DNA from: a candidate division CSSED10-310 bacterium
Lineage (GTDB): Bacteria; CSSED10-310; JAFGJC01
NCBI GenBank assembly: GCA_016927905.1
Contig: JAFGLW010000031.1
Location: forward strand, 124,001-188,000
Direction of reading: 5' to 3'
DNA: 64,000 nucleotides
Made by a program: the position numbers and the translations under genes. Below the pieces are notes generated by a model, which saw only the letters and a list, made by a program, of their open reading frames with translations, did no database searches and had not been told where the DNA came from. Below, in pieces: positions 1,000 through 33,207 of the stretch (within the stretch, counting starts at the first letter, position 1; the number at the start of each line of letters is the position of its first letter).

Positions 1000-1051
1000 T
1001 TCATGACCCGGGACATACGCCCTCTTTTACGGATTCACCGTTCTGCCTGAC

Positions 1052-1080: not shown

Positions 1081-1122
1081 CGAAATATGGGAATCAGTGG
1101 GGGATGGATGCCGGATTAACCA

Positions 1123-14164: not shown

Positions 14165-15900
14165 ACCTGAGAACCCCGATCCCGTGCCTGACTGCCGCAC
14201 TGATTCTCCTGACGTTTGCGTTGCCGGTAACGGGCGGGGAAACCGATATGCCGGAGGCCATAAGACCCGGAACCAGAGGACACATCCTATCCTGTTTCTC
14301 CGGAACGGAGCCGATCCGGCAGGAAATCGAGATCCTGGGTATTCTCCGCAACCCGGATCCGGCGGCGAACGCAATACTGGGGAAAATACTCTCCGAACCG
14401 GTCAAATCGGCGGGGATCATGTCGGGAATGAGCGGTTCGCCGGTATATATCGACGACCGGTTGATCGGAGCCATGTCGTTTGCCTTTCCGTTTTCGACTG
14501 AACCCATTTGCGGGATCACACCCATCGAAGCGATGGACCAACTGATTCCGTATCTTCCCGAGACCGGACAAATCCGGGACGATTCCCGGCGATCCCGTCT
14601 TTTAATTCCTCCCTTTAGATACTCCCGGATGCTCCCGATCCGGATGCCGCTGGTCATCCGGGGCATGCCCGATTCAACATTGGACATGTTCAAGGATCTG
14701 CCCTTTTCCCGGTCGTTTTTCAGCGAGTGGACACCGGTTGCGGGTGGGATCTCCAGGCTGGACCCGGAGATACCCCTGCGACCCGGATCTCCCGTAGCAG
14801 CCGTCCTGATGGACGGTGACATTAAAATGGCTGCAACCGGCACCGCCACGGCGGTCAACGGCAACCGAGTTCTGGCGTTCGGTCATCCCATGATGAGTCT
14901 CGGGCAGTGTGATATCCCCATGGCTTCCGCGGAAATCGTCACGTATATACCCAGCCTGGCGAATTCATTTAAACTGGCAAATATCGGGCGGGTTATGGGA
15001 AGTTTTTTTGTGGATGCCGAACCGGGTGTCGCCGGATTGATCGGTGATCCGCCCCGGATGATTCCCATGCAGATCATCATCCGGCGCAACGGGCATCCAG
15101 CCAGTGAATACACACTCAGGCTGATCAATGACCCCCGCCGTACCGCACTTTTTTCGGCGATCGGAGCGGGAGCGGCTTTATCGTTCATCGGACCCAAATC
15201 GGATGATTTTTCCTGCGAATCCACTCTGACGGTCGCAATCCGGAACCGGGAAAACCTGCAAATATCCCGAATAACCGGAGCCGGCAGGAATGCCTATGAG
15301 GAAATGTTCAAGATCCTGGCCGTAATCGGGGAAATACTGCAAAATCCGGTTCTTCCGGTTGAAATTGAGTCCATTCACCTGGCTGTTGATATTGTAGAGA
15401 CGATCCTGTTCTACCAGCTTGAATCGGCGGATCTTACAACCGGCCGGTCGCGGCCGGGAACCGATCTTACGGTTCGGTTGACCGTCAAGGAATACCGGGG
15501 TTCCCCCATTCGCAGGCTGGTGAAGCTGAGCCTTCCTCCGGGTGTTCAACCGGGATCATACGGCATCAAAATCATGGATGCCGAATCCTATCGCCGGTTC
15601 CAGTCCGAAAAGCGGGTCGCTGAATTTTTCTACCGGGATTTTGCGGATTTCATGGCACACCTGGATGCAGCCGGACCGGAAAACATCCTGCATGTTCTCC
15701 TGATCCAGCCATCCAGTGACATTCTCGTCGGCCATGGCCTGCTTCCCAATTCCCCTCCCACCATGGAATCCCTCAACCGCCTTCCGGGTTCAACCTGCCG
15801 GATCAGATCATCCGAAACCATCATATTGCATGACACCGTGACGTTCCCCGGCCGGATAAACGGCAAAGCGGAAATTGCGGTGGAAATTCTACCGGAATGA
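14161..15900 (+). CDS. Secreted SpoIVB-like (S55) peptidase-domain protein
   Basis: 579 residues with a signal peptide (about residues 1-25). A GMSGSPVYID segment near residue 95 matches the catalytic-Ser motif of SpoIVB-type peptidases, and LAFGHPMM near residue 240 resembles the His motif. In Bacillus SpoIVB the His motif comes first; here the Ser motif comes first, as I recall from other diderm S55-annotated proteins. The C-terminal third is unassigned. Overlaps dapB by four bases, so it is in the dap operon. Probable role: periplasmic or envelope proteolysis; activity not certain. Confidence 0.7.
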   Translation: MNLRTPIPCLTAALILLTFALPVTGGETDMPEAIRPGTRGHILSCFSGTEPIRQEIEILGILRNPDPAANAILGKILSEPVKSAGIMSGMSGSPVYIDDRLIGAMSFAFPFSTEPICGITPIEAMDQLIPYLPETGQIRDDSRRSRLLIPPFRYSRMLPIRMPLVIRGMPDSTLDMFKDLPFSRSFFSEWTPVAGGISRLDPEIPLRPGSPVAAVLMDGDIKMAATGTATAVNGNRVLAFGHPMMSLGQCDIPMASAEIVTYIPSLANSFKLANIGRVMGSFFVDAEPGVAGLIGDPPRMIPMQIIIRRNGHPASEYTLRLINDPRRTALFSAIGAGAALSFIGPKSDDFSCESTLTVAIRNRENLQISRITGAGRNAYEEMFKILAVIGEILQNPVLPVEIESIHLAVDIVETILFYQLESADLTTGRSRPGTDLTVRLTVKEYRGSPIRRLVKLSLPPGVQPGSYGIKIMDAESYRRFQSEKRVAEFFYRDFADFMAHLDAAGPENILHVLLIQPSSDILVGHGLLPNSPPTMESLNRLPGSTCRIRSSETIILHDTVTFPGRINGKAEIAVEILPE

Positions 15901-15932
15901 GTATCCCGGCACTAGGAGGCTCAGCCTGACAA

Positions 15933-18062
15933 ATGAAACGGTTCCTTGTCATTCTGATTGTGATTTCAACATGTTCCACCATCCGGGGTGCATCGTCTGA
16001 AATTGTGACTTTATGCGCCCAGTCGGATTTCACGGATGGCAATCTGGAAAACGTGAAGATCGATTCCGGCGGCTGGATCAGCCTTTCCGGAACCATGCAG
16101 ACACTGGCCGAAATTGAAGCTGAAAGCGCCGTATGGTCCCTGGCTATGGATCACCACGGCAGCGTATATGCCGGGACAGGCAACAACGGCATGATTTACC
16201 GGCTTCATCCGGGAGAAAAACCGGAAGTGATTTTTGATTCACCTGAAATCGCCATCCTCAGCCTGGCATGCCGTTTCGACGGAAGTATTTTTGCCGGAAC
16301 CGCACCCGACGGGTTGATCTACCAGATCACCCGGGATTCATGTGCCACGGTTTTCGCCCGGACGGAACAGCACTATGTCTGGGATCTGATAATCGATCCG
16401 GCAGGTAATCTGATCGCCGCGACAGGCGATCAGGCAAAAATACTATATTTCAGCCAGTCCGGGTCCAGGACCTTCGAGTGCGACCTGGATGCCGGCCATG
16501 TCCGGACGCTGGCGCTATGCGGGAATTCCCTGCTGGCCGGAACGGCCGATCCGGCAACCCTGTACCGACTGACCGGAACAGATCTGCAGGTTGTCTATGA
16601 CGCCAAGCAGCGGGAAATCAGCCGGGTGGTCTGCACCGGATCTCAGGATGTTTTTTTCTCGGCTGTGGCGTCACCCGCAATCAGCGGAACGGAGATAAAG
16701 CCGGGGATGGCGTTATTGCCGGGACAGAACCGGGAAGGCGACCGGGAAATCGGAACGGTTTACCGGATCACGTCGAGTGGCGTTGTGGAGTCCTGGTGGT
16801 CGACGGCTGCGGTCCCGATTTTTGACATGGTATTGATGGGTGAGCATCCGGTGGTTGCATGCGGCAGCAAAGGATTCGTGTTCGAGATCGAGGGACCGGA
16901 TCTGGCCGCACTAATATCCACGGTGGCCGAATCCCCCGTTCTCACCCTTCTTCCCGTATCATCCGGACTGTTGATGGGGACATCGAATCAAACGTCGGTA
17001 TTGAAATTGACCGGTGATCCGAGTCATGAAGGGAGTTATGAATCTGATGTCTTCGATGCCGAAACGGTTTCCAGATGGGGGATGCTGACATATCAGGCTT
17101 TGAATTCAGGTTCCGGCGAAATCGATTTGGAAACCAGATCGGGTAACCGGAAATCTCCGGATGATCTCTGGTCAAAATGGGCGTCGGTCGTGGCGGATAC
17201 TGGTGGATTTCGCATTCAGAGCCCGCCGGCCCGGTTCCTGCAGTGGCGGGCGCTCTTCAAGAGCCGGAAGACTTCCCCCGTGCTGGGCTGTATCCAGTTT
17301 TCGGTCGCCAGGCCGAACCGCACACCGCGCCTTTCATCGGTAATTGTTTATCCGGTCCAGAAGGGCGTGTTCATCGATCAGATGATACCTTCCGGAAAAC
17401 TATACCGGCAGGAATTTTCGGATGGAACCCGTCTGGAATATTCCATTCAGCCCCAGGCGGGTATCGGCGGTGTATCCAAGGGACAATGGTTCAAATTGCG
17501 CGGGATGCGCACGGTCCGCTGGGATGCCGCCGATCCGGATCTGGATCTTCTGGAATCTGAAATCGCCATTTCCACCCATGGGAGTGAAAGATGGACAATC
17601 CTGGAGACTGAATATGACACTCCCATTTTCACCTTCGACAGCACGGCTTTCCCGGACGGAGTTTACGAAATCCGGATCACCATCTCGGACAGGCCATCCA
17701 ATCCCAGGAATCTGGATCGATCCGCATCAATGGTCAGCCGTGCGTTCACCATTGACAACACTCCGCCGATCCTGGCTGGATTGACAGCGGAAGCGGTCGG
17801 GACATCCGGATCCACGATTCGCCTTTCCGGAAAAGCCCGGGATGATCTCAACCGCATCGTCCGGCTGGAATACTCGTTCAATTCGGAAAAATGGTATTCT
17901 TTCACAGGCAAAGATGGTATTCTCGACAGCTGTGAAGAACAATTCGAACTGGTGCTTCCGCAACCCGAAAACAGGACTGAAATCTTTGTGCGGGCAACGG
18001 ATGACCATGAAAACGTCACCACCGCCTCGGTTCCTGTTAAACAGGCAGGCGAAAAGAAGTGA
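15933..18062 (+). CDS. Secreted beta-propeller protein
   Basis: 709 residues with a signal peptide (cleavage near residue 20). From about residue 60 to 370 there are recurrent short motifs of the type GSVYAGTGNNGMIYRL, GSIFAGTAPDGLIYQI and NSLLAGTADPATLYRL, spaced about 40 residues, typical of a WD/NHL-like propeller. The C-terminal part (about 400-700) looks like Ig-like sandwiches, with a typical FTIDNTPPILAGL join. Function unknown; probably envelope-associated. GGAGG lies before the ATG at slightly long spacing. Confidence 0.65.
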   Translation: MKRFLVILIVISTCSTIRGASSEIVTLCAQSDFTDGNLENVKIDSGGWISLSGTMQTLAEIEAESAVWSLAMDHHGSVYAGTGNNGMIYRLHPGEKPEVIFDSPEIAILSLACRFDGSIFAGTAPDGLIYQITRDSCATVFARTEQHYVWDLIIDPAGNLIAATGDQAKILYFSQSGSRTFECDLDAGHVRTLALCGNSLLAGTADPATLYRLTGTDLQVVYDAKQREISRVVCTGSQDVFFSAVASPAISGTEIKPGMALLPGQNREGDREIGTVYRITSSGVVESWWSTAAVPIFDMVLMGEHPVVACGSKGFVFEIEGPDLAALISTVAESPVLTLLPVSSGLLMGTSNQTSVLKLTGDPSHEGSYESDVFDAETVSRWGMLTYQALNSGSGEIDLETRSGNRKSPDDLWSKWASVVADTGGFRIQSPPARFLQWRALFKSRKTSPVLGCIQFSVARPNRTPRLSSVIVYPVQKGVFIDQMIPSGKLYRQEFSDGTRLEYSIQPQAGIGGVSKGQWFKLRGMRTVRWDAADPDLDLLESEIAISTHGSERWTILETEYDTPIFTFDSTAFPDGVYEIRITISDRPSNPRNLDRSASMVSRAFTIDNTPPILAGLTAEAVGTSGSTIRLSGKARDDLNRIVRLEYSFNSEKWYSFTGKDGILDSCEEQFELVLPQPENRTEIFVRATDDHENVTTASVPVKQAGEKK

Positions 18063-18079
18063 ATGAAAGGAGTTTCTTT

Positions 18080-18790
18080 ATGAGCAGGCAACTTCATATT
18101 TTTGTTTCGCTGGCAGTATTGCTGATTTTTATCCCGGCCGTGTCCGCCGATCTGTACTGGGAAACCCATATGACGACATCCGGAATTCCCGGTGTACAGA
18201 ACGGGGATGATATCTCGAAAACCTTCATGAACAAGGACGGCATGCGAATGGAACGGAAAGACGGGATCACGATCATGAACTATGAGAAAGGCATGATCTA
18301 CCAGCTCGATTTCGATAAAAAGACTTATGAGGAAGTGCGATTGGACAGCATGCTCCAGGGCCATGATGAGGCGGTTCAGTACATGCAGAACATGATTAAA
18401 TCCATGTCGGAAGACATCACAATCGAAAAAACAGACGAAACAAAAAAGATCAACGGCTACGATTGCACCAAATACGTGGTCACAGTCATGGGCATGCCGT
18501 CTGAGACGTGGATCACCAAGGATGTCGAAGGTTTCGCGGAATTGCAGAATGCCACAAAAAAACACATCGAAAAATACAAAAACAATCCACTGCTCAAGAA
18601 CATGCTCGGAAATCCGGCATTCGAAAAACTCGAAGGATTTCCCATCATGAGTGTCAGCCAGGTCGGCCAGATGCGGTCTGTCAGCAATGTCACCAAGATC
18701 GAAAAGAAAAAGCTCGATGCGGATCTATTCCTGCCGCCTTCTGATTATGCCAAGGTGGAATCATCGTCCGATTCACCGTTCGGACGATAA
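18080..18790 (+). CDS. Secreted DUF4412-like protein
   Basis: 236 residues with a signal peptide (about 1-23). The body shows the pattern of DUF4412/LolA-like proteins: a mature start DLYWETHMTT, then a repeated met-rich strand KDGMRMER and the phrase INGYDCTKYVV that is typical of this family. The ATG at 18080 has AAAGGA upstream; an alternative GTG is 21 bases earlier. Last gene of the operon before a strong terminator. Function unknown. Confidence 0.65.
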   Translation: MSRQLHIFVSLAVLLIFIPAVSADLYWETHMTTSGIPGVQNGDDISKTFMNKDGMRMERKDGITIMNYEKGMIYQLDFDKKTYEEVRLDSMLQGHDEAVQYMQNMIKSMSEDITIEKTDETKKINGYDCTKYVVTVMGMPSETWITKDVEGFAELQNATKKHIEKYKNNPLLKNMLGNPAFEKLEGFPIMSVSQVGQMRSVSNVTKIEKKKLDADLFLPPSDYAKVESSSDSPFGR

Positions 18791-18857: not shown

Positions 18858-19217
18858 TCAATCGGATTCGAATACGGACTCGAAGGCCTCCGTCACCGCA
18901 CGAGCCGCTTCTTCGTTGAAGCGATTGAACCGCTTTAGAAACAATGCGCCCTCCGCAGTCAGCCGCGAACCCTTCCGTTTCGATGCGGATTGATTTTCAA
19001 CGAGCTTGTAACCGAGCCGATCCTCGGTTTCCCTGATTTTCCCCCACAGGGTTCTGAATGACATTCCCAGTTCCGATGCCGCCCTGTTCATGGACCCGGT
19101 CCGTTCAATCACCTCCAGAATGGATTGTCGACCCCCGCCCATCAAAATGCTCCCGGATGAATCCACGATCCATAACTTCATTCGAGGCGAGAATTTCGGA
19201 GAAGTCTGAGATTTCAC
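18858..19217 (-). CDS. ModE-like winged-helix regulator lacking the molybdate domain
   Basis: 119 residues consisting only of the N-terminal DNA-binding half of ModE. The helix-turn-helix is MNRAASELGMSFRTLWGKIR and the wing is LTAEGALFLKRF. The C-terminal MOP domains that bind molybdate or tungstate are missing. The longest frame starts at GTG 19217; the ATG at 19181 is an alternative. It is divergent from fdhD and close to the AOR-type operon, so it probably controls molybdenum/tungsten enzymes; the signal it senses is not evident. Confidence 0.75.
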   Translation of the reverse strand: MKSQTSPKFSPRMKLWIVDSSGSILMGGGRQSILEVIERTGSMNRAASELGMSFRTLWGKIRETEDRLGYKLVENQSASKRKGSRLTAEGALFLKRFNRFNEEAARAVTEAFESVFESD

Positions 19218-19329: not shown

Positions 19330-20172
19330 TCCGGGGTGGTGCAGTCGAAATTCGAAAACGGACCGCCCGTCAAGATGATCGTCAAAGATCTCAGCCGGTG
19401 TTTCGACACCATTTTGATCGACAAAAGCGAGAAGAAATGCCGGCCTCACCATCTGATCCGGGAAGCGTCGCTGGATGTTGATGTTGACGATATCCCGGTG
19501 ATTTCTCTTCTCTGTCTCCCGGTGGAGCTCGAATACCTCGCTCTGGGATTTTTGTTCACCGAAGGTTTTATCCAGTCCCGGCGGGATGTGACATCGATCC
19601 GTGTTTCCCGCAATCCACTTCGGATCGATATCCGAACGAACCGCGGGGAGGATCTGGCACGGCAGATCGTCGCCAAGCGGACAATCACATCCGGATGCGG
19701 CAGAGGCATTCTATTCCGGAATTCCGGAGATTGGCGTAAACCGGTTGTTCAATCCGATTTCAGAATTTCCACGACCAGACTGATCGAACTTTGGCGGCGG
19801 ATCGGCGAGAACGACGATTTGTACCGCAAGACCCGGGGTGTTCACAGTTCGGTGTTGTGCAGCCGGGAAACCATCGAGTATTTTTCGCCGGACATCGGCC
19901 GGCATAACACCATCGATCGGGTAGCTGGAAAATGTCTTTGGGATGAGATTGAGGTACGGGAGAAGCTCCTGTTCTGCACCGGTCGGTTCTCGTCTGAGAT
20001 GGTTTTAAAACTTGGAGAAATCGGTATACCCGTTGCGGTTTCCCGGTCGACTCCGACGGACATCGCCGTTGAGATGGCTCAGGATATGGGGATCACGCTG
20101 GCATCAACCAAGGACATGCGAAAACTGGTTATATACACCCACTCGGACCGAATAGCCAATGGTACCGGCTGA
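19309..20172 (+). CDS. fdhD: FdhD-type sulfurtransferase
   Basis: Up to 287 residues. FdhD moves sulfur from a cysteine desulfurase to the molybdenum or tungsten cofactor and is required for formate dehydrogenase activity in E. coli. Typical segments are LEYLALGFLFTEGFI, the catalytic loop TSGCGRG (one Cys instead of CxxC), HSSVLCS, EYFSPDIGRHNTIDRVAGK and SRSTPTDIAVEMA. The start is uncertain (19309, 19339 or 19375) and none has a strong ribosome site. No formate dehydrogenase is in the window, so here it may serve the neighbouring AOR-type enzyme. Confidence 0.85.
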   Translation: MIPYRYFSGVVQSKFENGPPVKMIVKDLSRCFDTILIDKSEKKCRPHHLIREASLDVDVDDIPVISLLCLPVELEYLALGFLFTEGFIQSRRDVTSIRVSRNPLRIDIRTNRGEDLARQIVAKRTITSGCGRGILFRNSGDWRKPVVQSDFRISTTRLIELWRRIGENDDLYRKTRGVHSSVLCSRETIEYFSPDIGRHNTIDRVAGKCLWDEIEVREKLLFCTGRFSSEMVLKLGEIGIPVAVSRSTPTDIAVEMAQDMGITLASTKDMRKLVIYTHSDRIANGTG

Positions 20173-20196: not shown

Positions 20197-20397
20197 TTAC
20201 CCTCCGTGCATGATATGAATCACCCGAACATCAGCTTCATCCGGGACCTTCGTTCCGGAATAATCCTCCGAATGAACCAATACGCCGTTAACCGTAACCA
20301 TTATCAGAACATAGGTATATCCCATTACGTCCAGGATATCCTGAACGGTCATGCCGTCATGCCAGCTGAGTTCGTCCCGGTTATTCACTGTGATCAT
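20197..20397 (-). CDS. ThiS/MoaD-family sulfur carrier protein
   Basis: 66 residues with a beta-grasp pattern and the essential C-terminal Gly-Gly (IHIMHGG). Such proteins carry sulfur as a C-terminal thiocarboxylate for pterin cofactor (MoaD) or thiazole (ThiS) synthesis. It overlaps the ThiF-like gene and is last in the AOR-type operon. No other thiamine genes are present, so a role in tungstopterin assembly is more likely than thiamine; this is inference from context. Confidence 0.8.
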   Translation of the reverse strand: MITVNNRDELSWHDGMTVQDILDVMGYTYVLIMVTVNGVLVHSEDYSGTKVPDEADVRVIHIMHGG

Positions 20398-21016
20398 GAC
20401 ATCTTGTATCCATCAGCAGTTCCACCGCCAGATTCGCCTGCATGTTCGCCACAATAGCCACCCGCGGCGCGCATAATCCCATGCTCATCTGCGAAGTCAT
20501 ATCTCCGCAAAAATAGACGTTCCCGGTCCGGGTGATCTGAATTTCATGATTGCGGCCGTAACCGGCCAGCCCGTTTCCAACGATCACCGGCTTCGACGAC
20601 GCTCCGCGGGACCAGGTTTCGATTAGCCAGATCTTATCCTCGGCCCGGTCAAACGCTTCGATCAGAAGGTCTGCGGTCGAATAGATATTCAAGAGATTTT
20701 CCGGCGTCAGTCTGCAGGAATGCAGGGTCAACCGGATCCGGGGATTGACTGCGCGAAGATGTTCTGCCAGCGCGTCGGTCTTGTATCGGCCGATATCGGA
20801 CACGAAGTAATGCTGCCGGTTGAGATTGGATAATTCGATCCGGTCGTAATCAGCCAGGATCAGATACCCCAGTCCCGCCCGGGCCAGGGAAACCGCTGCG
20901 ATGGAGCCCAATCCGCCGCATCCGGCGATCCCCACCCGCATTTGATTCAGCACCGGCGTGGTGCCCGGAACATTCCGGTCGAATAACTCATTCCGGTCAA
21001 GCGGCAGCAGTGTCAT
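20381..21016 (-). CDS. ThiF/MoeB/HesA-family adenylyltransferase
   Basis: 211 residues. The nucleotide-binding motif is GIAGCGGLGS (residues about 29-38), followed by LADYDRIELSNLNRQHYF, the standard E1-like Asp/Asn/Arg set. It activates the C-terminal glycine of a ThiS/MoaD partner by adenylation; that partner is the overlapping downstream gene. The Cys4 zinc site of MoeB is not seen, which is common in short ThiF forms. Starts by ATGA overlap with the redox gene upstream, so it is translationally coupled to it. Confidence 0.85.
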   Translation of the reverse strand: MTLLPLDRNELFDRNVPGTTPVLNQMRVGIAGCGGLGSIAAVSLARAGLGYLILADYDRIELSNLNRQHYFVSDIGRYKTDALAEHLRAVNPRIRLTLHSCRLTPENLLNIYSTADLLIEAFDRAEDKIWLIETWSRGASSKPVIVGNGLAGYGRNHEIQITRTGNVYFCGDMTSQMSMGLCAPRVAIVANMQANLAVELLMDTRCHDHSE

Positions 21017-22998
21017 CCCCTGTTTTTTTCGACAATGGCAACCAGTTCCGGCAGATCGATGCCCAGCTCCTTCAAGCGTTCGACCGTGGGCACTCCGTTG
21101 TCGTCCCAGCCCCGGCGCCGATACACAACTGACACGGTCTTGTCATACTGATCTTCGCGGTAATCCCGCAGTATTTTGATCTTTTCAGATGTGGATCTGC
21201 CTTCAGGATCAACTCCAACGATTTCCCTGAGCTGTTTATCATAGCGGTCCTGCCTGGATTCGTATTCCTCCGCCGTCACCGGACCCAGAGCACGGTAAGG
21301 CATGTAATCGTCCCTGCGTGTGCCGTACCCCAGCATCCGGCTCATGACCCGTTGGAGATTATAGACGCGCGCGGACTGATCGAGCATTTTCTGCTCATCC
21401 AGTTTGATCCCGGTCATGCCCTCCACGAATTTGAAATAGTTGTTAACGTGGTCCGGAACTTTCTGTGGTTCGGATGTCATTTTGTTGTCTGCGGGTACGA
21501 CGTCATTCCAGCAAAGTTTGCACAGGCCGTACAGCCCGAACCAGGTGCGCCACAGGGGGAAATAATGGAGTGCTTCCGCCTTGTGCTCATATGTCGGCAG
21601 TTCGTTGTTGACCATATCCATGAAAATCAGCCATGCTTCATCATGCTGCGGCCCTTTGATGGCCATACCGTAACCGCACTGCTGGGCGAGTGATTCCTTG
21701 GTGACATACTCCGACACTTCCAGCCCCTTGGTCTCCATGCCAATATCGTCCATGAATTTCCGATCCGCACCATATTCGTTTTCCCACTTATCTTTGAGCC
21801 ATCGGATTCCCTGCCCCACATCGACACCGAACCCTTCACCCCGGGCCATCTGGTGAAGCAGTTCCAGAACTTCGTCTCCGGAACCAAAATTCAGCTCCAG
21901 GCCGCCTGTTACACCGGTATCGATGACGCCGTTCTCGAAACACTCCATAACAAACGCTATGGTGGTGGCGGCGGAAATGGTATCGATGCCGTAGGTGTCG
22001 CAATAGAAGTTGAATTCGGCGATGAAATCCGCATCGAAACATCCCATGTTGGAACCTCCGGCCGCGGTTTCGTATTCCGGCCCGTCGACACAGACTTTCT
22101 GTCCCTTGTATGGGCCGGTCCGCAATTCGAAATCGTCGATCGTCTTGGCGCAGGCCATGCTGCATCCTTTCCAGCAACCGTCGGGCATATTCTGGGTGAA
22201 ATATTTCGCTTTCAGCATCTTCGAATCGATCTTCCACACTTCCGGATGGGATCCATATTTGTAATTCTTTACCGGTAAAAGATCGTATTGATTCATGACA
22301 TCGACAATATTAGCGGTACCGACCTCCCGCATCCGGCACTGAACCGGATCCAGATTGGCCATTTCGGCATTCACCTTCATCCCGTGGTCCCGGATCATCT
22401 GGGGATCCACCGGCTGGTTCAGATCGTCGACAATCTGGATGGCACCGGTTGGACAGACATAGGCGCAGGATGTGCACCCGATGCAATGCGGATCCACCTC
22501 GTTGAACGGCATCGCAATATGACGGTGTATCCCCCTGCCGGCAAAATCCAGGATCCGTTCCAGGGCAAACTCCCTACAGGCCCTGACACAGTGACCGCAT
22601 AGAATGCAGGACTGGGGGTCCTCCTCGGTATAACGACCTTTAAATCTCGACTCGGAAACGCCGCACAGTCCGGCAATTTCCCGGACAGCCCGGACATTGG
22701 GCCACCGGCCCAGGTACATTTCCGCCAGGATCCTCCGGTGTCGAGTCACCGTTTCCGAATCCGTCCAAACCTCCAGCGGTTCCCGAACGGGATAATTACA
22801 GGCCGTCACCAGTTTCTTCTTTCCCCGGACTTCAATCTCGCAGATACACAACCGGCAGGTGCCGGAGGGCATCAGATCCTTGTGATGGCACAGGGTGGGT
22901 ACGGTTATGCCCTCCTTTCGAACGGCGTCAAGAAGAAAGGTCCCTTCCGGAATTTCCCTCGGTTTTCCATTGATGACGATGCTGATTTTATCTGCCAT
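21013..22998 (-). CDS. Fusion: NuoG/HydA-like iron-sulfur module plus C-terminal domains of aldehyde ferredoxin oxidoreductase
   Basis: 661 residues. Residues 1-75 are a [2Fe-2S] ferredoxin domain (Cys37, 48, 51, 67). Residues 131-182 hold two [4Fe-4S] motifs (Cys131/134/137/141 and 172/175/178/182). The His-Cys cluster of NuoG is missing. From about residue 210 the protein is domains 2 and 3 of AOR: Cys275/279/283 for a [4Fe-4S] cluster, GPEYE (306-310), YGIDTIS (336-342), KGPQH (448-452, His452) and GLCKLC (491-496). The Glu and His match the proposed catalytic pair of Pyrococcus AOR. The AOR N-terminal domain is absent and sits on another gene of this operon. ATG 22998 is preferred over 23004 because GGAGG is better spaced. 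Tail overlaps the ThiF-like gene. Confidence 0.88.
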   Translation of the reverse strand: MADKISIVINGKPREIPEGTFLLDAVRKEGITVPTLCHHKDLMPSGTCRLCICEIEVRGKKKLVTACNYPVREPLEVWTDSETVTRHRRILAEMYLGRWPNVRAVREIAGLCGVSESRFKGRYTEEDPQSCILCGHCVRACREFALERILDFAGRGIHRHIAMPFNEVDPHCIGCTSCAYVCPTGAIQIVDDLNQPVDPQMIRDHGMKVNAEMANLDPVQCRMREVGTANIVDVMNQYDLLPVKNYKYGSHPEVWKIDSKMLKAKYFTQNMPDGCWKGCSMACAKTIDDFELRTGPYKGQKVCVDGPEYETAAGGSNMGCFDADFIAEFNFYCDTYGIDTISAATTIAFVMECFENGVIDTGVTGGLELNFGSGDEVLELLHQMARGEGFGVDVGQGIRWLKDKWENEYGADRKFMDDIGMETKGLEVSEYVTKESLAQQCGYGMAIKGPQHDEAWLIFMDMVNNELPTYEHKAEALHYFPLWRTWFGLYGLCKLCWNDVVPADNKMTSEPQKVPDHVNNYFKFVEGMTGIKLDEQKMLDQSARVYNLQRVMSRMLGYGTRRDDYMPYRALGPVTAEEYESRQDRYDKQLREIVGVDPEGRSTSEKIKILRDYREDQYDKTVSVVYRRRGWDDNGVPTVERLKELGIDLPELVAIVEKNRG

Positions 22999-23000
22999 GA

Positions 23001-24887
23001 TCATTTCACCTCCACCGCATCAAAATTGCACACCTCGAAGCAAATTCCGCATTTGATGCATTTCAACGGGTCGATCCGGTGCGTTTGTTTCTTTTCACCG
23101 GTGATGGCCCCGGAAGGACATTTCAATGCGCAGAGGGTGCAGCCGGTGCATTTTTCATGATTGATCGAATAGGTTATCAGTGCTTTGCAATGCCCGGCCG
23201 GACAGCGTTTATCCCGGATATGCGCATGGTATTCATCCCTGAAATACCGGATGGTGCTCAGGATTGGATTCCCCGCTGTACCGCCAAGCTGGCACAGGCT
23301 GGTTGCGGAAACCGTTTCCGAAACTTCCTCCAGAAACTCGATATCCCCCTCTTTTCCCTGGCCGTTGCAGATCCGGTCCAGAGTCTCATACAGAGCCGGT
23401 AGACCTTCCCGGCACGGCGTGCATTTTCCGCAGGATTCGTCCATCAGGAATCCGGTGAAATATTTGGCGACATCGACCATGCAAGTGCGGTCATCCATCA
23501 CGATCATCCCGCCCGAACCCATCATCGATCCGGCTTCGGTCAGGGAATCGAAATCCACCGGCATATCCAGTTTCTCCACCGGGATGCATCCACCGGACGG
23601 ACCGCCGGTTTGAACCGCTTTAAACCTCCTGCCGCCGGGAATGCCGCCGCCGATTTCGTAGATGATCTCACGGAGCGTGACACCCATGGGAACTTCCACC
23701 AACCCCGTATTGTTGATCGCACCCACCAGGGAGAAGACCTTCGTCCCGGACGATCCGCCCCATGGATTCTCCCGCACATTCCCGGTACCGATGGAAGCGA
23801 ACCAGTCGGATCCCTTTTCGATTATGACCGGGATGTTCGCCCATGTTTCCACGTTGTTCAGGACCGTCGGTTTATCCCGGTATCCGTATTCGACATTGTG
23901 AACGTATTTGGCGCGCGGTTCGCCGGCTTTCCCGGACATGGAAGCCATCAAAGCGGTCGATTCGCCGCAAACGAATGCCCCGGCGCCGCGATGAATGTGA
24001 ATATCGAACGAAAATTCCGTTTCAAAAATATTTTTTCCCAGGAGTCCCCGTTCCCTGGCCTGCCTGATCGCCTTGCCGAGTCGCGCCATTGCCAGGGGAT
24101 ATTCCTTCCTGACATAGACAAAACCTTCGTTTGCACCGACCGAAAAAGCCCCGATCATCATGCCTTCAATGACCGAATGCGGATCGGCTTCAATGATGCT
24201 GCGATCCATGAACGCACCGGGATCGCCTTCGTCGGCGTTGCACACCACATAGGGGATTTCCCTGCGCTGCAGAGCCGCTTCACGGGCGGACCGCCATTTG
24301 ATGCCGGCGGGAAATCCGCCGCCGCCCCGGCCCCGGATGCCGGATTTGATGACACTTTCAATCACCTCATCCGGCGACCCGCTCTCCAGAATTCCGCGGA
24401 TGGCCCGGTAACCGCCCCGGCCGATATAGTGTTCGATGTTTTCCGGGTCGATGATCCCCTTGTTGCGAAGCGCAATTGGCCGTTGTTTGCTGAAAAACCC
24501 GATATCTGCCATGGTCTGGAACCGCTGGCCGGTTGCCGGATCCCGGTACAGGAGCCGTTCAACGACACTACCTTTCTGAAGGTGCTTCTCAACAATCTCC
24601 TCGACATCCCCTTTCGCTTTGACTTTCTGATAAAAGATGCCTTCTGGTTGAACAACCACTATCGGTCCCACGGCGCAAAATCCATTGCATCCGGTACCGA
24701 TCACCAGGTAATCCGATTCCAGACTTTTTTCCTTTAGAATCCGGTTCAGGGCGTCCCGGACATTGAACGCTCCCGCCGAAATGCATCCGGTGCCGGTGCA
24801 GACCATCAATGTGGCTTTGTAGGCGCGTAGATCCCGGTTCACTTCCCGGGATATCGTTTCCAGATCCTGCATCTTAATCCGAGACAT
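23001..24887 (-). CDS. NuoF/HydB-like NAD(H)-binding flavoprotein subunit
   Basis: 628 residues. An N-terminal thioredoxin-like [2Fe-2S] domain has Cys30, 35, 67 and 71. The NuoF core has the NADH/FMN motifs GRGGGGFPAGIKW and NADEGDPGAFMDR, and a cluster motif CGKCTPCREG. The C-terminus carries two ferredoxin-type [4Fe-4S] motifs (CTGCTLCALKCP and CIKCGICFEVCN). This is the layout of HydB of electron-bifurcating hydrogenases, so it should exchange electrons with NAD(H) and possibly ferredoxin. Sits between the two AOR-half fusions, four bases after the first and overlapping the second. Bifurcation is inferred, not shown. Confidence 0.92.
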   Translation of the reverse strand: MSRIKMQDLETISREVNRDLRAYKATLMVCTGTGCISAGAFNVRDALNRILKEKSLESDYLVIGTGCNGFCAVGPIVVVQPEGIFYQKVKAKGDVEEIVEKHLQKGSVVERLLYRDPATGQRFQTMADIGFFSKQRPIALRNKGIIDPENIEHYIGRGGYRAIRGILESGSPDEVIESVIKSGIRGRGGGGFPAGIKWRSAREAALQRREIPYVVCNADEGDPGAFMDRSIIEADPHSVIEGMMIGAFSVGANEGFVYVRKEYPLAMARLGKAIRQARERGLLGKNIFETEFSFDIHIHRGAGAFVCGESTALMASMSGKAGEPRAKYVHNVEYGYRDKPTVLNNVETWANIPVIIEKGSDWFASIGTGNVRENPWGGSSGTKVFSLVGAINNTGLVEVPMGVTLREIIYEIGGGIPGGRRFKAVQTGGPSGGCIPVEKLDMPVDFDSLTEAGSMMGSGGMIVMDDRTCMVDVAKYFTGFLMDESCGKCTPCREGLPALYETLDRICNGQGKEGDIEFLEEVSETVSATSLCQLGGTAGNPILSTIRYFRDEYHAHIRDKRCPAGHCKALITYSINHEKCTGCTLCALKCPSGAITGEKKQTHRIDPLKCIKCGICFEVCNFDAVEVK

Positions 24888-24891
24888 GCTC

Positions 24892-26166
24892 TCAACCCCG
24901 CTTTCTTTCTATGATATCGGCAACAGCTTTTGCCTGGGCATTCCCGAATACCTCTTCGTCGATTTTGACCACCGGGGCCAGGCTGCAGCATCCCAGGCAG
25001 GCCACCGCTTCAAGACTGAACCGTCCGTCATCCGTCGTTTCCCCGCGCCGAATCCCCAGTTCCCGTTCGAAAGCATCCAGTATCAGCTCGGAACCTTTCA
25101 CGTGACAGGCCGTTCCCACGCAGACCTGGATCATCACTTCGCCTCTGGGCGCAAGGCTGAAAGCCTTGTAGAAGGTGGCGATATGGTAAAGTTCCGCCTT
25201 GGGAACCCCGGTCATGGCATTGATTTCATCGATGGCTGCTTTCGATATATGCCGGTCACGATCCTGGATATCCTGCATCATTTCGATCACATATTCGGGA
25301 TCGTCGTTCCACCTGGATATGGTTGTCCGGACGGAAGCCCGGTCGATATCCGGCATGGACGCCACATTGGGAACATAAATATCCGAAACCTTGCTCTTAA
25401 CGATACGCCATGCGGGTGTGTAGTCCCGATTCCGGATCACCAGGGCTTTCAGTTTCTTGTCGCGGAAAACCCGCCCGATGCCGCCTCGGCCGGCCTGTTT
25501 CAGCCTTGCCACTCTGCGGCGCCAGTCATAAAACGAAAAATTCAGGACCCCGATCCGGATGTGATCGGCGGCCCGGCCGGCCGATACCACGGCGATATTC
25601 CGCTTGTCATCTTCGCTCCCGGCATACATCTCCGTGAATTCTTCAGCCACGAGATGCGAATCGATGCTCTCCAGCGGCGCCGTCTCCAGCGTGATCCGAT
25701 TCCGGACTGCATCGATGCATAGAATGGTTTCGGAGTCTGCCTTGCCGACGATGCACAACGCGTCAAATCCAGCGAATTTCAGATACGGTCCGAAATAACC
25801 GCCGACATTGGAGTCCATGATTGAATTGGTCAGGGGAGAAATGGACGTGACCAGAGTTTTACCCGAGCCTGGAAACGATGCCGTTCCCCCCAGTGGCCCC
25901 GAAGAAAAACAGATGGGATTTTCCGGGCTGTCCCACCGGGTACCGGAATTTATTTCCCGGAACATCAGCCAGAGATCGAATCCTTTGCCACCCACCCACA
26001 ACGCTTTCATCTGCTCACTCACCGGCCGGATCTCGATAATCTTCCGGTCCAGATCGACATGAAGGGTTCGGTTTGCATATCCCCGGTCGAGCTCACCGGG
26101 CGGGTAAGACAACTCCGTGAGTATTTCATGCCGGGTGCGCATTTCACTGATCCGTTTATCCGCCAT
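24892..26166 (-). CDS. Fusion: N-terminal tungstopterin domain of aldehyde ferredoxin oxidoreductase plus NuoE-like [2Fe-2S] subunit
   Basis: 424 residues. Residues about 25-247 are AOR domain 1, with VGGKGFDLWLM, GPLGGTASFPGSGK, SNVGGYFGPYLKFAGFDAL and AGRGGIGRVFRDKKLKAL, the segments that wrap the bis-pterin cofactor. AOR sequence stops at the domain 1/2 boundary. Residues about 280-424 are NuoE/HydC, with [2Fe-2S] ligands Cys349, 354, 390 and 394. The rest of AOR is on the third gene of the operon. ATG 26166 has AGGAGG seven bases upstream. First gene of the operon; an inverted repeat (26264-26279) lies about 100 bases upstream. Confidence 0.88.
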   Translation of the reverse strand: MADKRISEMRTRHEILTELSYPPGELDRGYANRTLHVDLDRKIIEIRPVSEQMKALWVGGKGFDLWLMFREINSGTRWDSPENPICFSSGPLGGTASFPGSGKTLVTSISPLTNSIMDSNVGGYFGPYLKFAGFDALCIVGKADSETILCIDAVRNRITLETAPLESIDSHLVAEEFTEMYAGSEDDKRNIAVVSAGRAADHIRIGVLNFSFYDWRRRVARLKQAGRGGIGRVFRDKKLKALVIRNRDYTPAWRIVKSKVSDIYVPNVASMPDIDRASVRTTISRWNDDPEYVIEMMQDIQDRDRHISKAAIDEINAMTGVPKAELYHIATFYKAFSLAPRGEVMIQVCVGTACHVKGSELILDAFERELGIRRGETTDDGRFSLEAVACLGCCSLAPVVKIDEEVFGNAQAKAVADIIERKRG

Positions 26167-26411: not shown

Positions 26412-27623
26412 ATGAAAAAGTACGGGTATTTGACTGATCGTTTTAAAGAACAATCACCGGTCTTTCAGGTGGTAACGGCAACCGTCATGCTGATGATCCT
26501 CATAACCGTCCCGGTTCTTCACGCCGATATCAAGGAATTGAAGAACGACGGCTATATCGAGGGGGGTTCCGCCTATTATCAGCAGGGATTTGTCGCGGGG
26601 GAAATCATGGCTGCCAAGTTCACTGCAGATCCCGCCGATTACCCATATCAACTGACCATGGTCAGAGTTCTTGTGGGGGACGGCGGCATGGGAGGCACGA
26701 CCGGCGCGTTTGTCCTGCATATCTGGGAAGATACCGGCGCAACAGCACCGGGAACAGCACTCATTACACCCGAGTCCTTTCAATTAACTGCGGGATTCTG
26801 GAATGAAATAACCCTGCCCACGCCCATCGCGGTCACCAGCGGGGACGTGCGGGTGGGACTGGAATTTTTCCTGGATCCGCCACCCAGCTTCTTCCGGGAT
26901 GCGGACGGCAACATCACCCCGCATTACAATTTTATCTTTGCCGTTCCCGGTGGATGGTTCTACGCGGAAGATCTCGGTCTGCAGGGTGACTGGATCCTGC
27001 GGATCCGGATTGATACCGGCGGGACCTCTCCGACGGCAACACCAGCGCTGCCAACCAATACACCCCCGCCGTTCCCGACTCATACGCCGTTCCCGACCGG
27101 CACAGCCGCTCCGACATACACTCAGCTACCCACCAACACGCCGCTGCCTACCAACACAGGCCTGCCGACCGGCTCCGCTTCACCTTCGAGCACGCCGTCC
27201 GCTCCCCCTACCGATACGCCGGTGGCCACATCGACGGCCCTGCCGCCCTCACCCACTCCCACAGCTCCCGAAACACCCTGGGTGGAGCTCTGGATGCCGT
27301 CCCATTATTTTACTCCCGGCGATCCCTGCGCCCTGAACGCCATGATTCACAATCCCGGTGATCCGATTCAGAATTGCAGGCTGATCGTGTTTTTGATTCT
27401 GGGCGACGGCGTATGGTTCTGGCCGACCTGGGGTGAAAACCTGAATTCCCAGTTGATGACTATCGACAGCGGTCTGAACACCGTTATGATCATTCCGGAA
27501 TTCCTCTGGCCGACGGGCGCGGGATCCTATTCACCGATTTTGTTCATCGGAGCCGTAACCGACTCCGGTTACTGGAATTTTCTGGCAATTCCGGACATCT
27601 GGAATTTCGGGTTCGGGGAGTAG
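26412..27623 (+). CDS. Secreted protein with Pro/Thr linker and conserved C-terminal domain
   Basis: 403 residues. A signal segment (hydrophobic, about residues 20-38) is followed by a beta-rich domain (about 40-205). A low-complexity linker of repeated TNTP, TATP and LPTNTP units (about 208-290) then leads to a C-terminal domain of about 115 residues. That last domain shares its layout and the WP[ST]GxGS motif with the end of the protein ending at 55989. Two decayed copies of the same C-terminus occur in the window (near 35000 and 47600). Likely exported and surface-exposed; the C-terminal domain may be an anchoring or sorting module, which is a guess. Confidence 0.7.
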   Translation: MKKYGYLTDRFKEQSPVFQVVTATVMLMILITVPVLHADIKELKNDGYIEGGSAYYQQGFVAGEIMAAKFTADPADYPYQLTMVRVLVGDGGMGGTTGAFVLHIWEDTGATAPGTALITPESFQLTAGFWNEITLPTPIAVTSGDVRVGLEFFLDPPPSFFRDADGNITPHYNFIFAVPGGWFYAEDLGLQGDWILRIRIDTGGTSPTATPALPTNTPPPFPTHTPFPTGTAAPTYTQLPTNTPLPTNTGLPTGSASPSSTPSAPPTDTPVATSTALPPSPTPTAPETPWVELWMPSHYFTPGDPCALNAMIHNPGDPIQNCRLIVFLILGDGVWFWPTWGENLNSQLMTIDSGLNTVMIIPEFLWPTGAGSYSPILFIGAVTDSGYWNFLAIPDIWNFGFGE

Positions 27624-28845: not shown

Positions 28846-29691
28846 ATGGATGTTGTCAGCATAACCGTTGCCACAATGGGAACCGTTGCTTTGATCGCCG
28901 GAATCATTCTTTTTGCCGCATCGAAGAAGTTCGCCGTGATCGAGAATCCGCTGATCGATGAAATCGAGGAACTTTTGCCGGGAGCCAACTGTGGGGGATG
29001 CGGATTGACCGGTTGCCGGGCTTTTGCCGAAGCATCCGTCAATGACCGGACCGTCCGCCTGAAATGCCCGGTTGCACAAGCTGAAATCATGGCCAAAATT
29101 GCCGAAAAACTCGGCCTGGAAGCCCTGGAAACCGTCCGGACAACCGCACGGGTCATGTGTCAGGGAGGTTCGAGAAGCCGGCGGGAAAGCGAGTATCTGG
29201 GGATCCAGTCCTGTTTCGCCGCGGTCGTATCCAATTCCGTCGATCTGGTCTGCCCGTACGGCTGCCTGGGTTACGGAGACTGTGTCAGAGCCTGCCCGTT
29301 CGACTGTATCCGGATCGTGGGCGGTGTTGCGGTGGTGAATGAGGAAGAATGCACGAGCTGCGGTATCTGCGTCAAAGCCTGCCCGCGGAACATCATCGAG
29401 ATCACACAGTATGAAAAAAGGGTTTATGTCGCCTGCCGGTCACCCGACAAGGGCCCGGAAGTCAAACAATACTGTTCGGTCGGATGCATCGGTTGCAGGC
29501 TTTGCGAAAAAGCCTGTCAATACGATGCGATTGATTTTAAACCATTTATTTCACGCGTGATATCCGAGAACTGCACGGAATGCCTGGCATGTGTCGAGAA
29601 ATGTCCGACGCATTCCATCCTCTTCCGCCAGGTTGATCCGGAAAAAACCGGTATCCTGGCCGGCAAGGTGTACGACGATGTGCCGGAATAG
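28846..29691 (+). CDS. rnfB: Rnf complex subunit RnfB
   Basis: 281 residues. One N-terminal membrane helix (about 5-25) is followed by the RnfB cluster motif GANCGGCGLTGCRAF (about residues 46-60). The rest is a chain of four more Cys-rich [4Fe-4S] motifs (for example CVRACPFDC, CTSCGICVKACP, CIGCRLCEKAC and CTECLACVEKCP). It is thought to take electrons from ferredoxin. The high cluster count is like clostridial RnfB. GAGGAGG lies before the ATG. First gene of rnfBCDGEA. Confidence 0.93.
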   Translation: MDVVSITVATMGTVALIAGIILFAASKKFAVIENPLIDEIEELLPGANCGGCGLTGCRAFAEASVNDRTVRLKCPVAQAEIMAKIAEKLGLEALETVRTTARVMCQGGSRSRRESEYLGIQSCFAAVVSNSVDLVCPYGCLGYGDCVRACPFDCIRIVGGVAVVNEEECTSCGICVKACPRNIIEITQYEKRVYVACRSPDKGPEVKQYCSVGCIGCRLCEKACQYDAIDFKPFISRVISENCTECLACVEKCPTHSILFRQVDPEKTGILAGKVYDDVPE

Positions 29692-29700
29692 GCTGCGAGA

Positions 29701-31059
29701 ATGATCATGCCGGGTAAACTGCTCACATTTCGTTCCGGCGGTGTTCACCCCCCGGGGAACAAACACCTGAGTGAACACAAACCGATCCGGCGGGTGCCGC
29801 TTCCGGAAACCGTTTCGATCAACCTGAATCAACACCTGGGCAAACCGGCACAATGCGCCGTCAAGATTAAGCAGGAGATTTCAGTCGGCGAGCGAATCGG
29901 CGAAGCGGACGGATTCATATCGGCGGATATCCACAGCCCGGTTTCAGGCACGGTCAGGAAGATTCAGACCGTGATGACCGCCGTCGGCACCATGGCGGAA
30001 TCCGTATTGATCGAGGTCGATTCCGAGAAAACGGCTGAGGATCTGAAGAAATATCAATCCACACCCGACTGCGCTCCGGAAAAACTGGGCAAAAAGGAAA
30101 TCCTTGAAGCGATCAAGCAAGCCGGGATCGTCGGAGAAGGCGGCGCTGCATTCCCCACCCACATCAAGCTGGCTCCGCCACCGGATAAACCGATCGACAC
30201 GGTCATCCTGAATGGCGCTGAATGCGAACCGTTCCTGACAGCCGATCACCAGTTGATGCTTGAGAAAACGGCTGAGATCCTGACGGGCGCACGGATTCTC
30301 CGGCATATTCTGGAGATTGATTCGATCATCATCGGGATCGAGAACAACAAACCGGATGCCATCCGGGCATTCGAGAAACTGATTGAAACGGACTCATATC
30401 CGGGGATGCGGATCGCCGCGTTGAAAACCAAGTATCCCCAGGGTGGTGAAAAACAGCTGATCAAAGCGATTCTGGATCGCGAAGTGCCTTCCGGTAAACT
30501 GCCGTTCGACGTGGGGGTCATCGTGCAGAACGTGGGAACGGTTTTTGCCGTGTATGAAGCCGTTTACTGCGGGAAACCGCTGATCCAGAGGGTGGTGACC
30601 ATCAGCGGCTTCGTGAACAACCCGGGAAACTACCTGCTGCCCCTGGGTGTCAGTTTCGAGCATGCCATCCGGGCGGGAGCCGGGGGATTCCGGGACGATA
30701 CCCGGGTGAAGGAAGTCATCAACGGCGGACCCATGATGGGCAAGGCGGTCCGGCAGCTCGATGTGACGGTGACCAAGGGAACGTCCGGAATACTGGTCCT
30801 GTCCGATCAGGAGTTCAGTTATGACGGGGAAGGCCCGTGCATCCGATGCGGGCGGTGCATCGATACATGCCCCATGGGCCTGATGCCGACGCTCCTGGCC
30901 ATGAACGCCCGGTATGAGCGGATTGAAGGCTTAAAAAGCGTAATGGACTGCATCGAATGCGGCACCTGCAGTTATGTATGTCCCACTCATCGTCAGCTGG
31001 TTCACTGGATCCGGGCGGGCAAAGTACTCCTCCGGAAAGCGAACAGGAGCGTGAAATGA
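29701..31059 (+). CDS. rnfC: Rnf complex subunit RnfC
   Basis: 452 residues. It contains an N-terminal barrel-sandwich part and a NuoF-like NADH/FMN binding core, with VGEGGAAFPTHIKL (about 141-154) and LNGAECEPFLTADH. Two [4Fe-4S] motifs, CIRCGRCIDTCP and CIECGTCSYVCP, lie near residues 380 and 420. RnfC is the peripheral subunit that reacts with NAD(H). Its stop overlaps the rnfD start. Confidence 0.95.
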   Translation: MIMPGKLLTFRSGGVHPPGNKHLSEHKPIRRVPLPETVSINLNQHLGKPAQCAVKIKQEISVGERIGEADGFISADIHSPVSGTVRKIQTVMTAVGTMAESVLIEVDSEKTAEDLKKYQSTPDCAPEKLGKKEILEAIKQAGIVGEGGAAFPTHIKLAPPPDKPIDTVILNGAECEPFLTADHQLMLEKTAEILTGARILRHILEIDSIIIGIENNKPDAIRAFEKLIETDSYPGMRIAALKTKYPQGGEKQLIKAILDREVPSGKLPFDVGVIVQNVGTVFAVYEAVYCGKPLIQRVVTISGFVNNPGNYLLPLGVSFEHAIRAGAGGFRDDTRVKEVINGGPMMGKAVRQLDVTVTKGTSGILVLSDQEFSYDGEGPCIRCGRCIDTCPMGLMPTLLAMNARYERIEGLKSVMDCIECGTCSYVCPTHRQLVHWIRAGKVLLRKANRSVK

Positions 31060-32024: not shown

Positions 32025-32028
32025 AACC

Positions 32029-32592
32029 ATGAAAGACCTCAAAGATGTCATTATTTTGGTTCTGATCGCCGTCATCGCCGGTGCCTGTCTGAGCGTGGTT
32101 TATGTGTCGACGGCGGAACGTATCGCGGAAGTCAAGCGGATGGAGCTTCTGGAAGCGCTCAAGAAAGTGATGCCTTTTCTGAAGGATTCCCCCCGGGAAA
32201 TCGCATTCGATTTCAACGGGGAGACCATTTTGATCTATGCCGTCGAGGAAGACGGTGTTTTGGAAGGTGCGGCGGTCAGGATGACCACCCGGGAGGGTTA
32301 CGGCGGCGATATCTCGTTTTTAATGGGTGTCGGACCTTCGGGGGAAATCACCGGATTCTACCTTCTGTCCCACAAGGAAACCCCGGGTCTCGGCACCAAG
32401 GCAGCCGACAGGAAATTCTGGGGGCAGTTTATCGGCAAATCCCTGGATAATTTCTCGTTCAAGGTCAAAAAAGACAAGGGAGATGTGGAGGCGATCACTG
32501 CAGCCACGATTACTTCCCGGGCCCTTTCCCAGGCACTCGAAAAAGGACTGAAAGTGTACCGGAAGTATCGCGATACCCGAGGTGGATCATGA
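32029..32592 (+). CDS. rnfG: Rnf complex subunit RnfG
   Basis: 187 residues: one N-terminal membrane helix and a periplasmic FMN-binding domain. The covalent FMN site is AITAATITSRA, with the last Thr as attachment residue by family analogy. HKETPGLGTKA is the other family segment. RnfG relays electrons between RnfD and the membrane subunits. Four bases after rnfD and overlapping rnfE. Confidence 0.93.
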   Translation: MKDLKDVIILVLIAVIAGACLSVVYVSTAERIAEVKRMELLEALKKVMPFLKDSPREIAFDFNGETILIYAVEEDGVLEGAAVRMTTREGYGGDISFLMGVGPSGEITGFYLLSHKETPGLGTKAADRKFWGQFIGKSLDNFSFKVKKDKGDVEAITAATITSRALSQALEKGLKVYRKYRDTRGGS

Positions 32593-33206: not shown

Positions 33207-33207
33207 T

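Follow-up and report, generated by a model that had tools for sequence, protein, structure and literature searches.

In a 64,000-nucleotide stretch of the genome of a candidate division CSSED10-310 bacterium (GCA_016927905.1, contig JAFGLW010000031.1, positions 124,001 to 188,000; hereafter the window), three adjacent genes distribute the domains of an aldehyde ferredoxin oxidoreductase (AOR) over two proteins, each fused to a different subunit of a HydABC/NuoEFG-like module. We consider it likely that the products of all three form a single enzyme, a tungsten-bis-pterin aldehyde oxidoreductase built into an electron-bifurcating core of the Bfu type, with a tungsten site shared by two chains and a gene layout that arose by insertion of a cassette.

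The first gene (24892-26166, minus strand; 424 residues, with AGGAGG preceding its ATG at 26166) joins AOR domain 1 to a NuoE/HydC-type part. In a Pfam search residues 33-246 (25429-26070, minus strand) match AFOR_N (PF02730; 5.8e-47), and residues 281-421 (24904-25326, minus strand) match 2Fe-2S_thioredx/NuoE (PF01257; 2.5e-45), a [2Fe-2S] domain of the NuoE/BfuC type. The second gene (23001-24887, minus strand; 628 residues) encodes a flavoprotein of the NuoF/HydB/BfuB type, as judged by Pfam and by its cluster motifs. It comprises an N-terminal thioredoxin-like [2Fe-2S] stretch, the Complex1_51K domain for binding of flavin mononucleotide (FMN) and NADH (residues 181-353, 23829-24347, minus strand; 1.2e-43), in which an Ala/Met pair lies within the motif GAFMDR, the SLBB and NADH_4Fe-4S domains, and a C-terminal ferredoxin-like part with two [4Fe-4S] motifs (residues 574-627, 23007-23168, minus strand). 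The third gene (21013-23004, minus strand; 663 residues) fuses an iron-sulfur module of the NuoG/HydA/BfuA type to AOR domains 2 and 3. Its NuoG-like part (residues 5-190, 22435-22992, minus strand) is made up of Fer2_4 (1.4e-14) and Fer4 domains, with one [2Fe-2S] and two [4Fe-4S] motifs and no motif for a His-ligated cluster in the alignment, and is followed by AFOR_C (PF01314; residues 210-649, 21058-22377, minus strand; 5.5e-93). Both AOR families thus exceed the Pfam cut-off in the window, but on separate proteins. The fourth gene of the operon (20381-21016, minus strand) encodes a ThiF-like adenylyltransferase, which likely serves the maturation of the pterin cofactor. The stop of the first gene and the ATG of the second are separated by 4 bases, and the two following junctions are overlaps of 4 bases each. 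An initial annotation, made from the sequence alone, had placed the three genes and their domains exactly as Pfam does, and the profile searches that it proposed for the fusion proteins, against AOR, NuoE and NuoG, gave matches on the expected parts. None of the NCBIfam matches shown for the three proteins reaches its cut-off; the best are models for NuoE, NuoF and the NADH-dependent hydrogenase subunit A6, each covering one part.

The arrangement recurs in other genomes, where the initial annotation had suggested looking for it. Both fusions are present in five of the eight genomes of candidate division CSSED10-310, the halves being located on two contigs in one of them (G003). With an alignment of the third protein as the query, 160 relatives were found in species genomes, of which the best 80 loci were kept; by domain search 55 of these are of the split type and 25 hold an intact AOR. 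The two AOR halves lie on separate proteins in 44 of the split-type loci, and the remaining 11 are cut by contig ends. Among the 44 complete loci, 18 have three genes, 25 have NuoE additionally fused to NuoF, and one (L076) lacks NuoF; these counts are based on stop-to-stop frames with unrefined starts and include L071 as split despite a stop inside its NuoG part. According to record titles the split-type loci span 14 named phyla, with no phylum stated for 12 of the 55. Because the same split is found in five of eight genomes of the phylum and 55 of 80 kept loci, a frameshift, which had been denied from the outset, or an assembly error at the window locus is ruled out. The cut at the boundary between AOR domains 1 and 2 and the flavoprotein gene in between, both part of the initial annotation, were likewise confirmed by Pfam and by the gene order of the complete loci.

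The prevalence of the split AOR is 16 of 80 genomes in the Krumholzibacteriota (the phylum of L072) and 4 of 294 in the Elusimicrobiota (the phylum of L060). In the phylum of the archaeal locus L099 the NuoG-AOR fusion occurs in one of 340 genomes among the matches listed; two Thermoplasmatota matches that seemed to extend past NuoG (G098, G109) were opened and found to be plain NuoE/F/G genes without AOR. In the phylum of L061 the fusion is present in one of 396 genomes, and at least two further genomes have a four-gene form. Here 46 of 47 matches end where domain 1 ends; the four of these that were opened (L182-L185) are two four-gene split loci and two intact AORs. In the four-gene form, represented by L182 (1776-7601) and L183 (1260-6815), AOR domain 1, NuoE, NuoF, and NuoG with AOR domains 2-3 are separate proteins.

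In the proposed enzyme AOR domain 1 would be held by the BfuC/NuoE chain and domains 2-3 by the BfuA/NuoG chain, and the active site would close only on assembly with BfuB. When pairwise distances were compared across split loci for ten combinations of parts, the two AOR halves correlated best (r 0.76), compared with 0.71 for the AOR C half and NuoG, which share a chain. This comparison covers 24 of the 44 loci, all of them bacterial and split, is uncorrected for shared ancestry, and includes four loci with a reduced NuoF that depress the NuoF correlations. The two fusion proteins were folded singly with AlphaFold. In the model of the first (mean predicted local distance difference test score, pLDDT, 87.9; predicted template modelling score 0.61) AOR domain 1 and NuoE are connected by a low-confidence linker; Foldseek matched the former to 1aor_A with a root mean square deviation (rmsd) of 2.5 over 220 columns and the latter best to 9mqx_C, from the bifurcating tungsten oxidoreductase (WOR) of Acetomicrobium mobile, with an rmsd of 2.1 over 146 columns. 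The model of the third protein has a mean pLDDT of 82.1, mostly high in AOR domains 2-3, and the best solved relative of its NuoG part is 9mqx_A (6.1e-39). Some points weigh against the proposed assembly. Residues 135-193 of this model, in the NuoG cluster region, fall below a pLDDT of 50, and it matches solved AORs at an rmsd of 4.6 or worse (1b25_A, 4.6 over 475 columns; Foldseek E 4.9e-19). To our knowledge, proteins with this arrangement have not been described experimentally.

The closest published kin, which the initial annotation did not name, are the electron-bifurcating WORs (Class IV WOR or Wor-Bfu; PMC13328260, PMC9304861). AmWOR1 of A. mobile (WorABCSL, PDB 9mqx) also combines an AOR with a NuoE/NuoF/NuoG-type module, is the best solved match for the NuoE and NuoG parts of the window proteins, and is reported to use NAD+ and ferredoxin as acceptors (PMC9304861, PMC13328260). 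It has five subunits, with WorL as one intact protein and a WorS carrying four [4Fe-4S] clusters, whereas the window encodes three subunits, with WorL cut and fused to WorC and WorA, and no WorS. Class IV is described as WorLSABC in a 2026 survey that counts proteins holding both AOR domains (PMC13328260), and no single protein of the window operon holds both. The Bfu family is defined by a BfuBC core, and Wor, which has S and L subunits, is assigned to its Type 2; Type 1 enzymes (HydABC FeFe-hydrogenase, Nfn-, Fdh- and F420-Bfu) resemble the window enzyme in carrying the catalytic domain for the third substrate on BfuA and in their B and C subunits (PMC9304861). In Type 1 this domain lies entirely in BfuA, whereas the BfuA of the window carries only AOR domains 2-3, and domain 1 is on BfuC. 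The likeness to HydABC recognised initially was confirmed.

The nearest intact kin found, at 54-60% and among the best 80 of 160 loci, are 25 CWxGC-type AORs (L105, L106, L108, L109, L111-L131) from Thermodesulfobacteriota, Thermoplasmatota, Chloroflexota and others. Together with the Pyrococcus furiosus AOR (PfAOR, 1aor) they share the AOR domains and catalytic residues with the window enzyme but are single polypeptides, and no NuoE or NuoF match was found at the 25 loci. In the AorABC enzyme of Aromatoleum aromaticum (8c0z), too, an AOR is joined by further subunits, and the acceptor is NAD+ (PMC10413684). Its AOR subunit, unlike that of the window, is intact and in fold searches shares 28% identity with the N half and 20% with the C half. 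Its flavin subunit is of a different kind. No description of a split AOR was found in the open-licence papers searched; subscription papers and supplements lay outside that search, so an unnamed listing is possible. The layout is unlike that of any described WOR we found, and by its predicted working principle the enzyme would be a variant of the Wor-Bfu kind. As formally defined, however, neither Class IV WOR nor Type 1 Bfu includes it.

According to this principle, an aldehyde would be oxidised to the acid at the tungsten site, and the two electrons would pass from the AOR [4Fe-4S] cluster directly to the NuoG-type clusters, with no WorS wire, and on via the B1 cluster to the FMN of BfuB, where NAD+ and ferredoxin would be reduced together. 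Each of the twelve cysteines for the NuoG-type clusters (one [2Fe-2S], two [4Fe-4S]) is present in 52 or 54 of the 55 rows and falls in a gap in the others. With these and no His-cluster motif in residues 89-130, the window protein shows the BfuA pattern of A1, A2 and A4 without A3/A5 (clade 45), the cluster names following in part PMC9304861. The BfuBC core, consisting of FMN, five iron-sulfur clusters in BfuB and one in BfuC, is present at motif level, with the assignment of motifs to named clusters partly provisional. All cluster cysteines of BfuB are in place, and the Ala/Met pair, a marker of bifurcating beta subunits (PMC7311640), was mapped by motif.

The strongest of the alternatives, although we regard it as rather unlikely, is an enzyme assembled in the same way that does not bifurcate: its acceptor would be either NAD+ or ferredoxin, not both, or it would work in the opposite direction, reducing acids with electrons from NADH and ferredoxin. 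Several relatives speak against bifurcation, and those with a reduced flavoprotein or a gap at the NADH loop speak for this alternative. Nine of the 44 complete loci (L055, L062, L070, L074, L075, L076, L085, L086 and L100) have a NuoE without its cysteines and a reduced flavoprotein, the BfuB having lost its thioredoxin-type [2Fe-2S] and its C-terminal pair of [4Fe-4S]; L070, L074 and L100 also lack the FMN glycine, and L076 and L086 most of the FMN domain. L078 aligns just two of the four NuoE cysteines, which brings the loci with an incomplete NuoE cluster on alignment to 10 of 44. L081, L084, L095 and L096 are gapped at the NADH loop of NuoF with the cluster cysteines retained, and these four may have a ferredoxin-only electron outlet. 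In L099 the Ala/Met pair is replaced by Cys/Ala. Even for AmWOR1 no endergonic step is proven according to PMC12096430, and an Rnf set adjoining the window operon could use or supply reduced ferredoxin. Because of the reduced BfuB and NuoE loci, L078 and the NADH-loop gaps, bifurcation cannot apply to every member. In the window protein itself, however, no cluster is missing and the Ala/Met pair is present; this pair is aligned in 26 of the 43 loci having NuoF, and at motif level the window protein retains the clusters B2-B5, which non-bifurcating homologs lack according to PMC9304861.

A WorS with four [4Fe-4S] clusters is absent from the window operon. In a motif scan within 2.5 kb of the 44 complete relatives, eight of which have less than 1 kb before the operon, a four-motif ferredoxin was found only at L085. 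It is encoded there (790-1218, plus strand) directly upstream of the split AOR, whose flavoprotein is reduced, and gives the impression of a WorS-like outlet acquired anew. A WorS-like ferredoxin gene stands immediately upstream of the AOR in the intact loci L131 and L126, and none is present at L099.

The cut itself is best explained by the insertion of a nuoE-nuoF-nuoG cassette into an AOR gene. A single in-frame insertion at the linker between AOR domains 1 and 2 would account for the two fusions and for the order of the genes, and the cassette would afterwards have reached one or more other AOR genes. The AOR N half, NuoF (apart from L076), NuoG and the AOR C half follow each other on one strand in all 44 complete loci, which is the order of an uncut AOR gene with nuo parts between domains 1 and 2. 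The intact L105 has the sequence KALVVKLSNVKSGLNNPADPALLREVG at the junction, and the AOR part of the split C halves begins at the same NNPADP segment (L060, DALNNPADPGKIR; L097, EMNNPADPELIR), with no stretch visibly lost.

Phylogenies were used to follow the two components separately. In an AOR tree of 33 rows, 20 bacterial split AORs form one clade (100/100), and the archaeal split AOR of L099 groups with intact AORs of Thermoplasmatota (100/100); a single clade of split AORs was rejected by the approximately unbiased (AU) test (log-likelihood difference 143, p 0.0002). The tested tree comprises 20 of the 44 complete split loci and the window, a second AOR tree 13 and the window, and the roots of both were placed among intact relatives purely for display; rooting by the genome's own intact AOR was given up, its branch being far too long. 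The odd position of L099 was known before the AU test from an earlier tree, which omitted four loci with short AOR pieces. The NuoF proteins of the sampled split loci, including L099, L182 and L183, form one clade against nine NuoF paralogs, which are not a full outgroup (19 rows: 16 split loci, the window, L182 and L183; 100/100), and the split loci are also one clade in a quick NuoF tree of 43 rows (42 and the window, without L182 and L183; support 99).

At L099 the AOR halves have their top identity to intact archaeal AORs (81% for domain 1, 77% for domains 2-3), and NuoE/F/G are 50-68% identical to those of the bacterial split loci, their sole comparators. The gene order of L099 matches that of the intact L131 for four genes preceding the AOR, the AOR itself, ThiF and two genes further downstream, with two aldehyde-dehydrogenase genes intervening in L099 only. 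The identity profile of L099 is a mosaic, nearer to intact archaeal AORs save for about 130 residues past the junction, where both are about equal. The simplest account would be that the cassette was transferred with short flanks into an archaeal AOR gene. This is weakened by a tree of the junction-side segment, which groups L099 clearly with neither donor, and by the dependence of the filled and empty pair L099/L131 on one genome and one contig.

A stepwise path, by fission of the AOR gene and two separate fusions, seems to us an unlikely substitute for insertion of the three-gene cassette. L182 and L183, with AOR domain 1 and NuoE as separate genes, are possible intermediates of such a path, and the additional fusion of NuoE to NuoF in 25 of 44 loci indicates that fusions come about easily. 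Insertion, however, accounts for L182 and L183 equally well, whether or not the stop of domain 1 is read through, while the order of an uncut AOR gene in every complete locus is not predicted by the stepwise path, and L099 and L131 resemble a filled and an empty site at one place.

The joined halves align with PfAOR (1.8e-50) over query residues 32-519. Equivalents of Thr243, Glu313, Tyr427 and His448 (PfAOR numbering), the residues named for most aldehyde-oxidising members (PMC13328260), and of the four cluster cysteines are identical in all ungapped split rows (52-55 of 55) and in all 25 intact rows. Asn93 of domain 1 has an identical counterpart in 44 of 44 rows. The scored AOR residues are unchanged in all loci with an altered flavin module, and therefore the catalytic part is under constraint even where the acceptor part varies. 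The initial claim that both halves keep their motifs thus holds for the catalytic residues and the cluster cysteines but not throughout. The position aligned to the aspartate of the second pterin motif DxxGLC (D489 of PfAOR) is Gly in the window, Gly in 50 and Ser in 2 of the split rows, and Gly in 20, Ser in 3 and Ala in 2 of the intact rows; the cluster motif of the window and its clade is CxxxCxxxC, not CxxCxxxC, with the first two cysteines spaced one residue wider than in 1aor; and Arg76 and Arg182 of 1aor are replaced by Lys in the clade. These departures speak against the proposed reading. A non-aldehyde substrate, as in the benzoyl-CoA reductase BamB of the same fold (PMC13328260), would suit the unusual pterin and cluster motifs, but is improbable in our judgement: the four residues mentioned are retained, the top-scoring solved relatives are aldehyde oxidoreductases with BamB last of nine, and neighbouring genes of some relatives make or use semialdehydes.

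The genome also contains a second, intact AOR (G000:C10:14995-, frame of 688 residues), a finding that the initial annotation would have counted against its reading if combined with a lack of structural fit between the halves. Domain 1 of this second AOR shares just 35% identity with that of the split AOR, which places it, as judged by sequence, in a different lineage; a derivation of the split from this gene is ruled out, the two being too distant. Misassembly, a frameshift or a pseudogene whose work is done by this paralogue has a negligible probability, for although the intact AOR exists and the split loci are nearly all from metagenome-assembled genomes by record titles, the same junction is found in tens of species from separate assemblies, the active-site residues are invariant where aligned, and the paralogue comes from a distant lineage.

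Leads to the metal and the substrate come from neighbouring genes. ThiF was found in 30 of the 44 complete split loci. A WtpA-like gene adjoins six split loci, all Krumholzibacteriota by titles, and the L058 copy, the only one tested, is above the NCBIfam cut-off. Genes of the Δ1-pyrroline-5-carboxylate (P5C) dehydrogenase type adjoin split loci of distant taxa (L099, 10020-13176; L103, 2116-5370; L097, 6440-8071), with PruA in all three and piperidine-6-carboxylate dehydrogenase in L099 and L103, each above its cut-off but barely so in L099. HypD adjoins the split locus L084, a glycyl-radical enzyme below the cut-offs is found at L055, and a fragment of the ornithine-cyclodeaminase family at L097. 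Of the intact loci, L112 has HypD and a gene of the ornithine-cyclodeaminase family, L124 and, by similarity, L129 have ProC, and L112, L120 and L124 have gene pairs of the amino-acid-oxidase type, for which proline as substrate is a guess. As a weaker lead, the substrate aldehyde may belong to the proline, hydroxyproline, ornithine and lysine group (glutamate-gamma-semialdehyde and kin). Other results tell against tungsten and this substrate: wtpA is absent from the window's genome (86.5% complete; tupA and modA were not searched), no P5C dehydrogenase model matches there either, and the majority of split loci have no P5C-type neighbour; the neighbour counts are uncorrected for background. 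Because of the two absences, the hints at tungstate and at the substrate stem solely from relatives. Tentatively, and short of an even chance, the nuoE-nuoF-nuoG cassette may be an insertable electron-handling unit found in more than one AOR lineage, including an archaeal one, that turns an AOR dependent on ferredoxin or WorS into a three-subunit bifurcating enzyme with a tungsten site in trans, serving amino-acid semialdehydes (glutamate-gamma-semialdehyde or its C6 homologue).

Adjoining the operon and divergent from it is an rnfB-C-D-G-E-A set (28846-33795, plus strand), which could couple the ferredoxin and NADH of the operon to an ion gradient. Near the ThiF end lie genes for a ModE-like regulator (18858-19217, minus strand) and FdhD (19333-20172, plus strand); FdhD is also encoded by the second gene past the intact AOR of L116. 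Three genes near the operon (14161-18790, plus strand) have counterparts of matching order and length (ca. 580, 709 and 230-240 residues) at L046 (7890-12470, minus strand) in another genome of the phylum, a correspondence judged by order and length alone; the last of the three carries DUF4412 in the window. A 403-residue protein without a Pfam match (26412-27623, plus strand) contains a Pro/Thr-rich repeat stretch.

If the proposal is correct, the window encodes a bifurcating enzyme that shares its catalytic metal site between two of the subunits that handle electrons and dispenses with the polyferredoxin wire found in the known bifurcating tungsten enzymes. This branch, spread across many mostly uncultured phyla, would escape the WOR survey because the latter demands both AOR domains in one protein. 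The archaeal pair of filled and empty sites makes an origin by gene insertion directly testable, and the relatives with decayed flavin or ferredoxin parts would be natural tests of the role of each cluster in bifurcation.

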